The position numbers and the translations under genes are program-made. A stretch of DNA of 64,000 nt from Balaenoptera acutorostrata (lineage: Eukaryota > Chordata > Mammalia > Artiodactyla > Balaenopteridae): NCBI RefSeq assembly GCF_949987535.1, contig NC_080065.1:40463239-40527238 (forward strand), written 5' to 3'. Each line of letters begins with the position of its first letter. Positions within the stretch are counted from its first letter, which is position 1. This document shows, piece by piece, positions 34,201-43,235 of this stretch. The notes under the pieces were generated by a model. That model saw only the letters and a program-made list of their open reading frames with translations. It did not search any database and was not told the origin of the DNA.

Positions 34201-34555
34201 ACATCTCCGCTGGTGTTTGCCCAAACGACTGAGCACCATAGCTGTGGTAGGCTGACAGAACTAACCGTCACATCATCTTTAGTCTCAAACTCCAAGAATG
34301 AGTAGAAATTATCCAAGAGCTGGGGAAAGAGAACTCTAAGAATAAAGAACTGAGTGAATAGAGGCATGAGTCAGGATAGAGTTTGGTACATTTAAGGAAA
34401 TGGAAGAAATTTATAATGGCTGCATCAGATAAACAAGAGTAGTGATGGCTTGAAATGAGACTGGAGATAAGGAAAGGATCTCTATCATGAAAAGCCTTTG
34501 AAGTGGACACTTAAAAGTTCTTCAGCACTCACATCTTTGTGTTTTAGTGCATTTT

Positions 34556-34570
34556 GAGTTTTATTTTTTT
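34556..34570. repeat. Target-site duplication of the complete L1, 3' side
   Basis: GAGTTTTATTTTTTT is identical over 15 bp to 41928-41942. It runs straight into the T-run that is the poly(A) tail of the minus-strand element, so the last T residues cannot be assigned exactly. Confidence 0.92.
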
Positions 34571-34605
34571 TTTTTTTTTTTTTTTTCCACACACACACAC
34601 TGTAT

Positions 34606-34611
34606 TTTATT
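34606..34611 (-). terminator. Polyadenylation signal used by the transduced transcript
   Basis: AATAAA on the minus strand, 20 bases upstream of the first base of the poly(A) tail at 34586. A GT-rich run lies between signal and tail. The spacing is normal for mammalian cleavage and polyadenylation. Confidence 0.8.
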
Positions 34612-35258
34612 TTTACAAGAGATAGATAGACTGACACCAAGCATTGTACATGGATGACCACAACAAAAGCAACAATGATTGCAATTACCAAACATGAAAC
34701 ACACTTATACTATGTCATAATATTGACATTCAGTCCAGTAATCCTCCACTGTAACAGCTCCTTTACTTTGCAGTGAAAATTGATTTGTATATTCTTTTCC
34801 TCTGAGTCCTTGTGGGATTTTTTTTTTTAATTCAGACAGAAAGTCACAAAAATTATACTCATCCTCATCAGTTCACTCAGTCCCATGTAATTAATTTCTT
34901 TTTTTTCATCTTGATCTTTTGTTAGCAGTTTTATGAGTTCATCAGTTTTTCATTAGAGTTCTGAAAATGCTTATTCATTCAGTTCAGCAGTACAGTCAGT
35001 TACCAGAAACCTGTACTTGTCAGAGTCTTTTCCATGAATTTCTTGAAGATGAAACTCTTTTATAGGAACATATTTGCAAAATCATCAGAGTACACCCAGA
35101 ACTGTCTGTAAATGACAAAAGACTTAAAAATGACCATGGTTAAAGATTTGATGAAAGTTCATAATAATGCAGTTGACAAGAAAATTAGTTATTTCTGAGA
35201 TATACATTTTAAAGTAATAACTAGGATTATTACTTATAACATTATACCAGAACATATA

Positions 35259-35946
35259 AGATTTTTAGACGTTTCCTGTAATGTCTGAAACATTTATATT
35301 AACATATTTCCATACATATTTCCATACAAATACAAATATAAGATTTTTAGAAATTTCATGTAATGTCTGAAACATTTATATTAACATATTTCCATACATA
35401 TTTCCATACAAATACAAGATTTTTAGAAATTTCATGTAATGTCTGAAACATTTATATTAACATATTTCCATACATATTTCCATACAAATACAAGATTTTT
35501 AGAAATTTCATGTAATGTCTGAAACATTTATATTAACATATTTCCATACATATTTCCATACAAATACAAGATTTTTAGAAATTTCATGTAATGTCTGAAA
35601 CATTTATATTAACATATTTCCATACATATTTCCATACAAATACAAATATAAGATTTTTAGAAATTTCATGTAATGTCTGAAACATTTATATTAACATATT
35701 TCCATACATATTTCCATACAAATATAAGATTTTTAGAAATTTCATGTAATGTCTGAAACATTTATATTAACATATTTCCATACATATTTCCATACAAATA
35801 CAAGATTTTTAGAAATTTCATGTAATGTCTGAAACATTTATATTAACATATTTCCATACATATTTCCATACAAATACAAATATAAGATTTTTAGAAATTT
35901 CATGTAATGTCTGAAACATTTATATTAACATATTTCCATACAAATA
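35259..35946. repeat. Minisatellite: nine tandem copies of a 76/82-bp unit inside the transduced DNA
   Basis: Units begin with AGATTTTTAG at 35259, 35341, 35417, 35493, 35569, 35651, 35727, 35803 and 35885, giving lengths of 82, 76, 76, 76, 82, 76, 76, 82 and a short last copy of about 62. The 82-bp form has six extra bases (AAATAT) near its end. Each full unit holds two copies of CATATTTCCATA; the last has one. Copies 2 to 8 are almost identical, while copy 1 differs (GACGTTTCCTG for GAAATTTCATG), so amplification was recent. Confidence 0.95.
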
Positions 35947-36176
35947 ACCCAATGAAAGTTTAGTATTAGTTGTTTTGTTTGTTTTTTTATACTGCAGGTT
36001 CTTATTAGGCATCAGTTTTATACACATCAGTGTATACATGTCAATCCCAATCGCCCAATTCAGCACATCACCATCCCCACCTCATCGCAGTTTTCCCCCC
36101 TTGGTGTCCATATGTCCATTCTCTACATCTGTGTCTCAACTTCTGCCCTGCAAACTGGCTCATCTGTACCATTTTT

Positions 36177-39100
36177 CTACGTTCCACATACATGCATTAA
36201 CATACGATATTTGTTTTTCTCTTTCTGACTTACTTCACTCTGTATGACAGTCTCTAGATCCATCCACTTCTCAACAAATGACTCAATTTCGTTCCTTTTT
36301 ATGGCTGAATAATATTCCATCGTATATATGTACCACAACTTCTTTATCCATTCGTCTGTTGATGGGCATTTAGGTTGCTTCCATGACCTGGCTATTGTAA
36401 ATAGTGCTGCAATGAACATTCGGGTGCACGTGTCTTTTTGAATTACGGTTTTCTCTGGGTATATGCCCAGTAGTGGGATTGCTGGGTCATATGGTAATTC
36501 TATTTTTAGTTTTTTAAGGAACCTCCATATTGTTCTCCATAGTGGCTGTATCAATTTACATTCCCACCAACAGTGCAAGAGGGTTCCCTTTTCTCCACAC
36601 CCTCTCCAGCATTTGTTGTTTGTAGATTTTCTGATGATGCCCATTCTAACAGGAGTGAGGTGATACCTCATTGTAGTTTTGATTTGCATTTCTCTAATAA
36701 TTAGTGATGTTGAGCATCTTTTCATGTGCTTCGTGGCCGTCTGTATGTCTTCTTTGGAGAAATGTCTATTTAGGTCTTCTGCCCATTTTTGGATTGGGGT
36801 GTTTGTTTCTTTGATATTGAGCTGAATGAGCTGTTTATATATTTTGGAGATTAATCCTTTGTCCGTTGATTCATTTGCAAATATTTTCTCCCATTCTGAG
36901 GGTTGTCTTTTCGTCTTGTTTATGGTTTCCTTTGCTGTGCAAAAGCTTTGAAGTTTCATTAGGTCCCACTTGTTTATTTTTGTTTTTATTTCCATTACTC
37001 TAGGAGGTGGATCGAAAAAGATCTTGCTGTGATTTATGTCAAAGAGTGTTCTTCCTATGTTTTCCTCTAAGAGTTTTATAGTGTCCAGTCTTATATTTAG
37101 GTCTCTAATCCATTTTGAGTTTATTTTTGTGTATGGTGTTAGGGAGTATTCTAATTTCATTCTTTTACATGTGGCTGTCCAGTTTTCCCAGCACCACTTA
37201 TTGAAGAGACTGTCTTTTCTCCATTGTATATCTTTGCCTCCTTTGTCATAGATTAGTTGACCATAGGTGCGTGGGTTAATCTCTGGGCTTTCTATCTTGT
37301 TCCATTGATCTATGTTTCTGTTTTTGTGCCAGTACCATATTGTCTTGATTACTGTAGCTTTGTAGTATAGTCTGAAGTCAGGGAGTCTGATTCCTCCAGC
37401 TCCATTTTTTTGCCTCAAGACTGCTTTGGCTATTCGGGGTCTTTTGTGTCTCCATACAAATTTTAAGATGATTTGTTCTAGCTCCGTAAAAAATGCCCTT
37501 GGTAATTTGATAGGGATTGCATTGAATCTGTAGATTGCTTTGGGTAGTATACTCATTTTCACAATGTTGATTCTTCCAATCCAAGAACATGGTATATCTC
37601 TCCATCTGTTGGTATCATCTTTAATTTCTTTCATCAGTGTCTTATAGTTTTCTGCATACAGGTCTTTTGTCTCCCTAGGTAGGTTTATTCCTAGGTATTT
37701 TATTCTTTTTGTTGCAATGGTAAATGGGAGTGTTTCCATAATTTCTCTTTCAGATTTTTCATCATTAGTGTATAGGAATGCAAGAGATTTCTGTGCATTA
37801 ATTTTGTAACCTGCAACTTTACCATATTCATTAATTAGCTCTAGCAGTTTTCTGGTGGCAGTTTTAGGATTCTCTATGTATAGTATCATGTCATCCGCAA
37901 ACAGTGACAGTTTTACTTCTTCTTTTCCAATTTGTATTCCTTTTATTTCTTTTTCTTCTCTGATTGCCGTGGCTAGGACTTCCAGAACTATGTTGAATAA
38001 TAGTGGTGAGAGTGGACATCCTTGTCTCGTTCCTGATCTTAGAGGAAATGCTTTCAGTTTTTCACCATTGAGAATGATGTTTGCTGTGGGTTTGTCATAT
38101 ATGTCCTTTATTATGTTGAGGTAGGTTCCCTCTATGCCCACTTTCTGGAGAGTTTTTATCATAAATGGGTGTTGAATTTTGTCAAAAGCTTTTTCTGCAT
38201 CTATTGAGATGATCATATGGTTTTTATTCTTCAATTTGTTAATATGGTGTATCACATTGATTGATTTGCGTATATTGAAGAATCCTTGCATCCCTGGGAT
38301 AAATCCCACTTGATCGTGGTGTATGATCCTTTTAATGTGTTGTTGGATTCTGTTTGCTAGTATTTTGTTGAGGATTTTTGCATCTATATTCATCAGTGAT
38401 ATTGGTCTGTAATTTTCTTTTTTTGTAGTGTCTTTGTCTGGTTTTGGTATCAGGGTGATTGTGGCCTCATAGAATGAGTTTGGGAGAGTTCCTTCCTCTG
38501 CAATTTTTTGGAAGAGTTTGAGAAGGATGGGTGTTAGCTCTTCTCTAAATGTTTGATAGAATTCACCTGTGAAGCCATCTGGTCCTGGACTTTTGTTTGT
38601 TGGAAGATTTTTAATCACAGTTTCAATTTCATTACTTGTGATTGGTCTGTTGATATTTTCTGTTTCTTCCTGATTCAGTCTTGGAAGGTTATACCTTTCT
38701 AAGAATTTGTCCATTTCTTCCAGGTTGTCCATTTTATTGGCATAAAGTTGCTTGTAGTAGTCTCTTAGGATGTTTTGTATTTCTGCGGTGTCTGTTGTAA
38801 CTTCTCCTTTTTCATTTCTGATTTTATTGATTTGAGTCCTCTCCCTCTTTTTCTTGATGAGTCTGGCTAATGGCTTATCAATTTTGTTTATCTTCTCAAA
38901 GAACCAACTTTTAGTTTTATTAATCTTTGCTATTGTTTTCTTTGTTTCTATTTCATTTATTTCTGCTCTGATCTTTATGATTTCTTTCCTTCTGCTAACT
39001 TTGGGTTTTGTTTGTTCTTCTTTCTCTAGTTTCTTTAGGTGTAAAGTTAGATTGTTTACTTGAGATTTTTCTTGTTTCTTTAGGTAGGCTTGTATAGCTA

Positions 39101-39995
39101 TAAACTTCCCTCTTAGAACCGCTTTTGCTGCATCCCATAGGTTTTGGGTCGTCGTGTTTTCATTGTCATTTGTCTCTAGGTATTTTTTTATTTCCTGTTT
39201 GATTTCTTCAGTGATCTCTTGGTTATTTAGTAACGTATTGTTTAGCCTCCATGTGTTTGTCTTTTTTACGTTTTTTTCCCTGTAATTCATTTCTAATCTC
39301 ATAGCGTTGTGGTCAGAAAAGATGCTTGATATGATTTCAATTTTCTTAAATTTACTGAGGCTTGATTTGTGACCCAAGATGTGATCTATCCTGGAGAATG
39401 TTCCGTGTGCACTTGAGAAGAACGTGTAATCTGCCGTTCTTGGATGGAATGTCCTATATATATCAATTAAATCTATCTGGTCTATTGTGTCATTTAAAGC
39501 TTCTGTTTCCTTATTTATTTTCATTTTGGATGATCTGTCCATTGGTGTAAGTGAGGTGTTAAAGTCCCCCACTATTATTGTGTTACTGTCGATTTCCTCT
39601 TTTATAGCTGTTAGCAGTTGCCTTATGTATTGAGGTGCTCCTATGTTGGGTGCATATATATTTATAATTGTTATATCTTCTTCTTGGATTGATCCCTGGA
39701 TCATTATGTAGTGTCCTTCCTTGTCTCTTGTAACATTCTTTATTTTAAAGTCTATTTTATCTGATATGAGTATAGCTACTCCAGCTTTCTTTTGATTTCC
39801 ATTTGCATGGAATATCTTTTTCCATCCCCTCACTTTCAGTCTGTATGTGTCCCTAGGTCTGAAGTGGGTCTCTTGTAGACAGCATATATATGGGTCTTGT
39901 TTTTGTATCCATTCAGCCAGTCTATGTCTTTTGGTTGGGGCATTTAATCCATTCACGTTTAAGGTAATTATCGATATGTATGTTCCTATGACCAT
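36177..39995 (-). CDS. LINE-1 ORF2 protein: endonuclease and reverse transcriptase, intact
   Basis: A 1272-residue open frame, the usual length for mammalian L1 ORF2p, which nicks target DNA and copies L1 RNA onto the nicked end. Residues 1-240 form the apurinic-like endonuclease. Seen are N13/N15 in TLNVNGLN, E42 in QETH, Y114 in NIYAPN, D144 and N146 in GDFNT, D204 in RIDHI, and D228-H229 in FSDH. The reverse transcriptase has D599 in SIDAEKAFD, the [14 protein letters not shown] block (655-668) and the catalytic FADD at 699-702. A C-terminal C-x3-C-x7-H-x4-C motif lies at 1129, 1133, 1141 and 1146. No stop or frameshift interrupts it. It starts 58 bp after ORF1 ends, the usual arrangement, in which ORF2 is translated by an unconventional reinitiation. 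The 3' UTR is short, about 190 bp. Integrity across nearly 4 kb argues for recent insertion; activity itself is not shown. Confidence 0.97.
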
Positions 39996-40053
39996 TTTCT
40001 TAATTGTTTTGGGTTTGTTTTTGTAGGTCCTTTTCTTCTCTTGTGTTTCCCAC

Positions 40054-40959
40054 TTAGAGAAGTTCCTTTAGCATTTGTTGTAGAGCTGGTTTGGTGGTGC
40101 TGAATTCTCTTAGCTTTTGCTTGTCTGTAAAGCTTTTGATTTCTCCATCAAATCTAAATGAGATCCTTGCTGGGTAGAGTAATCTTGGTTGTAGGTTCTT
40201 CCCTTTCATCACTTTAAGTATTTCATGCCACTCCCTTCTGGCTTGCAGAGTTTCTGCTGAGAAATCAGCTGTTAACCTTATGGGGGTTCCCTTGTATGTT
40301 ATTTGTCGTTTTTCCCTTGCTGCTTTCAATAATTTTTCTTTGTCTTTAATTTTTGCCACTTTGATTACTATGTGTCTCGGCGTGTTTCTCCTTGGGTTTA
40401 TTCTGTATGGGACTCTCTGCGCTTCCTGGACTTGGGTGGCTATTTCCTTTCCCATGTTAGGGAAGTTTTCGATTATAATCTCTTCAAATATTTTCTCTGG
40501 TCCTTTCTCTCTCTCTTCTCCTTCTGGGACCCCTATAATGCGAATGTTGTTGCGTTTAATGTTGTCCCAGAGGTCTCTTAGGCTGTCTTCATTTCTTTTT
40601 AGTCTTTTTTCTTTAGTCTGTTCCGCAGCAGTGAATTCCACCATTCTGTCTTCCAGGTCACTTATCCGTTCTTCTGCCTCAGTTATTCTGCTATTGATTC
40701 CTTCTAGTGTAGTTTTCATTTCAGTTATTGTATTGGTCATCTCTGTTTGTTTGTTCTTTAATTCTTCTAGGTCTTTGTTAATCATTTCTTGCATCTTCTC
40801 AATCTTTGCCTCCATTCTTATTCCGAGGTCCTGGATCATCTTCACTATCATTATTCTGAATTCTTTTTCTGGAAGGTTGCCTATCTCCACTTCATTTAGT
40901 TGTTTTTCTGGGGTTTTTTCTTGTTCCTTCATCTGGTACATAGCCCTCTGCCTTTTCAT
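40054..40959 (-). CDS. LINE-1 ORF1 protein: RNA-binding chaperone, intact
   Basis: A 301-residue open frame. The family forms trimers that coat L1 RNA in the cytoplasmic ribonucleoprotein. A coiled coil is suggested at about residues 44-130 by heptad-like I/L/M spacing with dense E and K. The RRM-like domain begins near residue 138 with [12 protein letters not shown] and includes RHIVIK at 195-200. The C-terminal domain (about 222-295) has [19 protein letters not shown] and PARISF, all hallmarks of the family. The N-terminal region is short compared with the roughly 338-residue human protein, which is normal for other mammals. The start was chosen as the first ATG of the long frame; ATG codons at residues 7 and 10 would also be possible. 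No disabling change was seen. Confidence 0.95.
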
Positions 40960-41100
40960 CTTCTCTGTCTTTCTGTAACTGTGGTTTTTGGTCCACAGGC
41001 TGCAGGATTGTAGTTTTTCTTGCTTCTGTTGTCTGCCCTCTGGTGGTTGAGGCTATCTAAGAGGCTTGATGGGAGGCTCTGGTGGTGGGTAGAGCTGACT

Positions 41101-41250
41101 GTTGCTGTGGCGGTCAGAGCTCAGTAAAACCTTAATCCACTTGACTGTTGATGGGTGGGGCTGGGTTCCCTCCCTGTTGCTGTGGCGATCAGAGCCCAGT
41201 AAAACCTTAATCCACTTGACTGTTGATGGGTGGGGCTGGGTTCCCTCCCT
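41101..41250 (-). repeat. Two tandem 75-bp modules in the L1 5' UTR
   Basis: Copies at 41101-41175 and 41176-41250 differ at only two bases that I can see (cggtcagagctc versus cgatcagagccc). This resembles the monomer duplications in some rodent L1 promoters, but here there are just two copies. Because 75 is a multiple of three, frames stay open through both copies on each strand: 110 codons on the minus strand (41053-41385) and 165 codons antisense (41102-41599). Confidence 0.85.
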
Positions 41251-41908
41251 GTTGGTTGTTTTGCCTGAGGCAACCCAACACTGGAGCCTACCCGTGCTTT
41301 TTGGTGGGGTTAATGGCAGACTCTGGGAGGGCTCACGCCAAGGAGAACTTCCCAGGACCTCTGCTGCCAGTGTCCTTATCCCCACGGTGAAACAGAGCCA
41401 CCACTCGCCTCTGCAGGAGACCCCCCAACACCAGCAGGTACGTCTGGTTCAGTCTCCCCCAGGGTCACTGCTCCTTCCCCTGGGTCCCGATGCACACATT
41501 ACTTTGTGTGTGCCCTCCAAGGGTGGGGTCTCTGTTTCCCCCAGTCCTGTCACAGTCCTGCAATCAATTCCCACTAGACTTCAAAGTCTGATTCTCTAGG
41601 AATTCCTCCTCCCTTTGCCGGACCCCCAGGTTGGGAAGCCTGAGGTGGGGCTCAGAACCTTCACTCCAGTGGGTGGACTTCTGTGGTATAAGTGTTCACC
41701 AGTCTGTGAGTCACCCACCCAGCAGTTATGGGACTTGATTTTACTCTGATTGCGCCCCTCCTACCGTCTCACTGTGGCTTCTCCTCTGTCCTTGGACGTG
41801 GGGTGTCCTCCTTGGTGAAGTCCAGGGTCTTCCTGTCAATGATTGTCCAGCAGCCAGTTGTGATTCTGTTGCTCTCGCAAGAGGGAGTGAGAGCACGTCC
41901 TTCTACTC

Positions 41909-41918
41909 CGCCATCTTG
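41909..41918 (-). promoter_or_regulatory. YY1-type site at the start of the L1 promoter
   Basis: CAAGATGGCG on the minus strand, starting about 10 bases inside the element. It matches the YY1 core that in human L1 sets accurate transcription start at the first base. Binding here is inferred. Confidence 0.65.
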
Positions 41919-41927
41919 GTTAATCTC

Positions 41928-41942
41928 GAGTTTTATTTTTTT
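41928..41942. repeat. Target-site duplication of the complete L1, 5' side
   Basis: Second copy of GAGTTTTATTTTTTT, directly next to the first base of the L1 5' UTR and followed by AAGG. The T/A boundary here marks the original nick site. Confidence 0.92.
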
Positions 41943-43235
41943 AAGGTATAACTCAAAAGCTACAATTTCTAATATCCCTTGAGTTAAGGTGCAGACATGT
42001 CACTTATGTTCAGCCAATCAAATATAAAACTTGATTTGATAAGTGAGCCACCTGGGAAAATTGGCTGGGTACTGGACATCCATCTTACTCATGTGAGTGG
42101 TTGAAATGGCAACCAGGTTTTGGGGGTGGTGGCAGGTTCCTGGTTGAATTATATGGATTTGAGGGGAATTTATAAGATGAAATCAGAAAGACTGGAAGAT
42201 TAGGTGAGTGTTGGAGATGAGAATGAGGAAAGGATTAGCTTCTATCCATTTTTCAATGTTATCTATAATCTATTTTTATTAAACTTTATCTATATTCCAT
42301 CCACAGAATCTCACTTATATATTTATGGTTAATACACATCAATATTCACCTCTTAAAAATAATTTGCTCTTTTATCTAAACTGCTCTCAAGATACCACCA
42401 TTGTATTGTTTATTATCTTTCATAAAGCCATATGCAACGCAGTCCTTTATAACTTAATGATAGAAAAAAAGCTTACCTATTATTATGCTTTTTTAAAATA
42501 AAATGTTTAAGTGATTCACTATACTTAATATTTGGTTTTCATAGCAAGGAACTTCAAAATCAAATTTTGCACTTATTTGCAACAAATTTAGTGTAAGTTT
42601 CTTGAACAAAACTTTCCCTTAAGTTATGATATACTTCTTCTTTTGTTTTTACTTTAAAGGTCGTACTTTAGGCTTTTTTTTTTTTTTTTGGTATAATCAA
42701 GGTGGAAGCTATGATGAGAATAAGTGTGGAATGTGCCAAAATAGAAAGCAAGATTTTTCTGGCATTTTTTTTTTACCTTCAAAGTTATTCTTTAGTATAA
42801 GGGATTCACATCTTATTACTTGAGTCCTTACAAAGGGCACTCCCTCACAATTATTTTGAGTTTGAAGTACTGTTAGAGGAAGCTACCTTAGTCTGAAATA
42901 AACTCAATCAATGTTTCTTTGAGATGCTTAAAAAGTTCACCTGAAGATTTATAACACAGAAGTCAAGGAAATATAATTTTACTCCGCAGATTTTGACCTC
43001 ACAATTGGAAGTATCGAAGGAAGTGGTAAACAAAGGTTTTTAAAGCTTTTGGATGAATGAAAAGCATAATCGCATAGACTCTGTTTTCCAAGAACACCAA
43101 AAAACAATAACGTTGAATTCAGGTATGTGTCTTAGCTCAGCATCTGGTCCAAAGTGCAGAGGGGATAAGACTTGGGGCTTAGATCTCTCTCTTTCCCCTA
43201 AGATGCATTTTTATAAAGAAAAATCTAGTTTTCAT
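41943..43235. other. Unrecognised AT-rich sequence
   Basis: Flank beyond the L1 5' end. No gene or clear element seen. Confidence 0.45.

Follow-up and report, generated by a model that had tools for sequence, protein, structure and literature searches.

An intact young L1 insertion of Balaenoptera acutorostrata with a constitutive 3′ extension that probably originated in an ancient 3′ transduction

We found that the window, which is the whole stretch of 64,000 nucleotides analysed here (Balaenoptera acutorostrata, contig NC_080065.1, positions 40,463,239 to 40,527,238 of the forward strand), carries what is, with a probability that we put at about 80%, a very recent and structurally intact insertion of a young L1 subfamily, the normal transcript of which extends beyond the old L1 3′ end by about 1.4 kb, into an extension founded by an ancient 3′ transduction. 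For this young and abundant subfamily, the extension serves as a constitutive 3′ end, and it was already in the parent when the window copy arose, the extension, the junction and the poly(A) site being common to the subfamily and copied with it. The original prediction had read the locus as a 3′ transduction reaching about 1.4 kb past the L1 end; the inserted unit does end there and looks like a product of read-through, but the extension was not made at this insertion.

The inserted element, a full-length L1 with its 3′ extension, lies on the minus strand at 34587..41927, with the L1 5′ end at 41927, and all its parts are given here on that strand. Both open reading frames are intact, namely ORF1 of 301 aa (40054..40959; Pfam Transposase_22, Tnp_22_dsRBD and Tnp_22_trimer) and ORF2 of 1272 aa with endonuclease and reverse transcriptase (36177..39995; Pfam Exo_endo_phos and RVT_1). 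The canonical L1 3′UTR (35971..36176) ends in an impure A-rich run (35990-35971) without AATAAA. Past about 35971, the element continues as about 1.38 kb of non-L1 DNA, hereafter the tag, which comprises its start and a minisatellite of 76/82-bp units (35254..35970, with the array itself at 35942-35254) and a unique part of 667 bp containing only short open frames (34587..35253). From the ORF2 stop to the poly(A), AATAAA occurs only once, at 34611-34606, 19 bases upstream of the poly(A) tail (34571..34586, beginning at 34586, with additional As in common with the duplication), and an ATTAAA is present inside the tag at 34831. The 15-bp target-site duplication (TSD), AAAAAAATAAAACTC, is outside the entire L1 and extension, its 5′ copy at 41928..41942 being identical to its 3′ copy at 34556..34570. 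The coordinates first proposed for the TSD, the poly(A) and the AATAAA were correct to within a few bases. The L1 domains in ORF1, the endonuclease and reverse transcriptase in ORF2, the poly(A) and the TSD at an A-rich site identify the element as a LINE-1, and the non-L1 DNA past the canonical end, inside the TSD and closed by a poly(A) signal and tail, has the anatomy of an ancestral transduction. Over the last 4.8 kb, the window copy was 0.10% apart from the majority sequence of 16 copies, indicating that the insertion is very recent. An Rfam scan of 34400-42000 at gathering thresholds gave 0 matches, RNA folding of the unique part of the tag gave a z of 0.93 (20 shuffles), an exact 29-nt piece of the tag had 0 matches in genome_contigs and 0 in viral_contigs, and blastn of the unique part against plasmids gave none.

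The genome contains thousands of copies of the extension, which, like the finding that about half of it is a tandem array, goes beyond the original prediction. Whole-genome pattern counts in the host genome (2.77 Gb), allowing up to 3 mismatches, indicated 3,698 matches to a 75-nt piece of the tag end, compared with 3,953 matches to a 79-nt piece of the L1 3′UTR of the same subfamily, and the control patterns read backwards gave 0 in both cases. A search with 34587-35240 resulted in 40 scored matches, including the window, among 337 first-look candidates, and in all 40, 653 or 654 of the 654 bases were aligned at about 100% identity. Loci of 9.9 kb were fetched for the first 20 of the 39 scored matches besides the window; being all about 100% identical to the tag, they over-represent young copies, as do the copies on contig C1 with an exact 3′UTR match that are described below. 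The junction of L1 and tag was present in 19 of these 20 loci, the remaining one (L021) being truncated inside the array, and the A-run was found at the equivalent position in all 20, allowing for differences of a few bases in the GT run and the final Gs. The check proposed for the transduction was to find this DNA directly behind a further L1, and these loci provide it. Pre-existing local DNA at this site is excluded, since the unit recurs elsewhere with identical ends. Direct TSDs outside the tag were observed in 10 copies, the window included, and both ORFs were complete in 10 of the 21 tagged copies, again including the window, which is only suggestive, as read from coding sequence, of a subfamily that may be active.

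Among the 71 copies with an exact match to the 79-nt 3′UTR piece listed on C1, 66 carried the tag. For 39 of them, the call was based on an exact tag tail located 0.6-2.5 kb downstream in the same orientation, and 8 of the 39 were also read; the junctions of the other 32 of the 71 copies were all read, with 27 continuing into the tag and 5 not. The distances from the 3′UTR to the tail formed a ladder with rungs about 80 bases apart, as expected from a variable number of whole tandem repeat units (VNTR). Exact tag tails without an exact 3′UTR upstream accounted for 39 of the 79 on C1, and the poly(A) was at the usual place in all 20 of those that were read. In four of the five copies that do not continue into the tag (L034, L039, L095 and L099), the poly(A) is within the A-rich run that marks the old L1 end, and in the fifth (L043), the tag is cut off by the poly(A) after about 50 bases. 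Such copies would result from internal priming or from the use of an upstream site, so that, with 5 of 71 ending at the old L1 end or slightly beyond it, either the upstream site still sees some use or priming occurs internally there. Separately, two pairs of exact tag tails about 440-500 bases apart on the same strand were observed (C1:100411606 with C1:100412047, and C1:103234743 with C1:103235243), which may be nested insertions or local duplications.

The array had 2 to 9 units across the copies read, with 9 in the window by the anchor count, to which another motif gave 8, and with an undercount by one in two copies in which the anchor is mutated. Its units vary by a few bases and by a 6-base insertion. 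The unit order at window positions 35254-35942 can be written as a short code, which differs among copies and might serve as a lineage barcode. SVA, a non-autonomous retrotransposon, likewise combines an internal VNTR with frequent transductions, whereas the L1 described here encodes intact ORFs of its own, and its array is part of the 3′UTR.

With respect to the origin of the tag, an ancient 3′ transduction is the likeliest. An older L1 end, known from one copy (locus L021), reads ATAAAAAATAAATAAAATAAAATTC and has three AATAAA in 40 nt, and the canonical end of the subfamily reads ATAAAAAAACAAACAAAACAACTAATACT, with minor variants in a few copies; the old AATAAA signals have changed in the subfamily from AATAAATAAA to AACAAACAAA. 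Long ago, transcription of one full-length L1 would have overrun the poly(A) signal of this L1, which was weak or lost, and continued into the flanking DNA, and the read-through transcript would have stopped at the next AATAAA, giving a 3′-transduced copy that founded the present lineage. The old signal may have been lost before or after this founding read-through. Once the upstream signals had been lost by the above change, the transduced DNA could act as the regular 3′UTR, the minisatellite would vary in steps of whole units, and the window copy would have been made by ordinary target-primed reverse transcription of the tagged transcript. A search for the founder's duplication beside the L1 5′ end, limited to duplications holding CAACTAATACT, gave 0 matches, and the read-through origin is what we infer, no native copy of the tag having been found.

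Alternatively, a separate retrotransposed RNA could have inserted, in the same orientation, into the A-rich tail of the L1 that founded the lineage, the two later being transcribed and copied together. The endonuclease is known to target the A-rich tails of L1s, the tag terminates with AATAAA and a poly(A), and its source locus was not located, all of which would accord with such an event; however, two events and a lucky orientation would be required, read-through recurs in this lineage, and the tag could not be assigned to any gene or RNA family (Rfam; only short open frames); we consider this alternative unlikely. Lower still is the probability that this L1 branch always had the extension, as an old inherited 3′UTR rather than an acquisition: its constitutive presence in the young copies read would be in line with that, but an A-rich terminal run lies at the junction, and the sole older L1 end met in these loci stops at this junction, with AATAAA. 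Hardly any weight can be given to a locus-specific 3′ transduction, in which one parent L1 is followed by the tag DNA and can be identified by it; the anatomy of the window locus by itself would suit it, but the junction in 19 of the 20 fetched loci, the tag in 66 of the 71 copies on C1 and the 3,698 matches to the tag end all stand against it. The tag is, by that last count, far from unique to one parent and a few daughters. The claim that it could identify the parent L1 locus had accordingly to be abandoned, as a tag that is constitutive across the subfamily, with its junction and poly(A) site, cannot name one parent, and a transduction event peculiar to the window copy is likewise refuted by the family-wide tag.

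Read-through beyond the tag itself was also found. The 21 copies divide into 10 that terminate with the poly(A) of the tag, 8 that extend past it and 3 (L009, L015 and L018) in neither class, so that a further transduction is present in 8 of the 18 classified copies. In seven of the eight, the TSD occurs after a second poly(A), at +1255 in L011, +142 in L014, +2254 in L016 (where the duplication is of 12 bases), +552 in L017, +1764 in L019, +113 in L020 and +550 in L025; these seven were called by the duplication alone, and L021 by its duplication together with a parent. As a control, a 12-mer or longer was shared between mismatched 5′ and 3′ flanks in 2 of 110 pairs, a neighbouring poly(A) not being demanded. 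Decay as the reason for the absence of TSDs beside the tag was rejected on account of the seven copies with a TSD after the second poly(A). The parent of L021 is L022, which has a full 5′ end and its own duplication: about 0.87 kb of L022 flank stands behind the tag in L021, closed by AATAAA and a poly(A) and bounded by a different duplication. A segmental duplication was rejected for this pair, as the match stops at L021's own poly(A), which is followed by L021's own duplication. In the passages of PMC12458276 that give a frequency, about 15% of full-length human L1s carry transductions; the 8 of 18 found here exceeds this, in a sample that is small and biased toward young copies and that includes truncated ones. 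A second L1 3′ piece was also observed after the tagged L1, within one duplication-bounded insertion, in L019 (from 9306) and L011 (from 9734), and may also have been transduced.

At the other end of the element, 6 of the 21 tagged copies (L011, L014, L018, L019, L024 and L027) start within a 90-base zone of the 5′UTR just before ORF1 (element positions 826-915, equivalent to 41103-41014 in the window), directly after a 75-bp tandem duplication (41099-41254). No sequence common to and adjoining the starts of these six 5′-short copies was found. A second, downstream transcription start would fit the clustering.

3′ transduction, transduction families and UTR turnover are already known in L1. 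As in the human families, in the parts of PMC6425141 and PMC12458276 that concern them, an L1 is here joined to downstream DNA with an AATAAA, a poly(A) and an outer duplication, and the derivation of L021 from L022 is a standard case of this kind; in contrast to those families, the first extension is present here in thousands of copies and acts as the family 3′ end. UTR turnover in L1 lineages (PMC13174262), such as the recruitment of mouse 5′UTRs (PMC3600994), similarly places a non-homologous UTR in a young lineage, but at the 5′ end, whereas the change described here is at the 3′ end and has a visible candidate mechanism; section 22 of PMC13174262 raises the question of UTR change for the L1 5′ end. 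L1-derived satellites have been described in cetaceans in work of 1998 that is cited and tabulated in a part of PMC6947457. In openly licensed papers, a set that cannot prove absence, we recognised no account of a 3′ end that was acquired by transduction and became fixed across thousands of copies of an L1 lineage.

These findings suggest that a tag past an L1 3′ end should be counted genome-wide before a parent is named, and the variable array and the second-order tags offer markers for tracing recently active copies. 3′ transduction is familiar as a sporadic by-product and as a tracer; in this subfamily, the likely transduced piece is constitutive and the old poly(A) signal has been lost, which represents a concrete route for L1 lineages to change their UTRs. 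On a wider reading, which we offer tentatively and with nearly as much credence as doubt, genomic DNA once picked up by read-through could now be the working 3′UTR of the main young L1 lineage of the species, in replacement of a lost poly(A) signal, and the lineage could keep extending its 3′ end because the signal of the tag leaks too, as 8 of 18 copies already have a further layer. If true, this process would act as a ratchet that renews the 3′UTRs of L1s.
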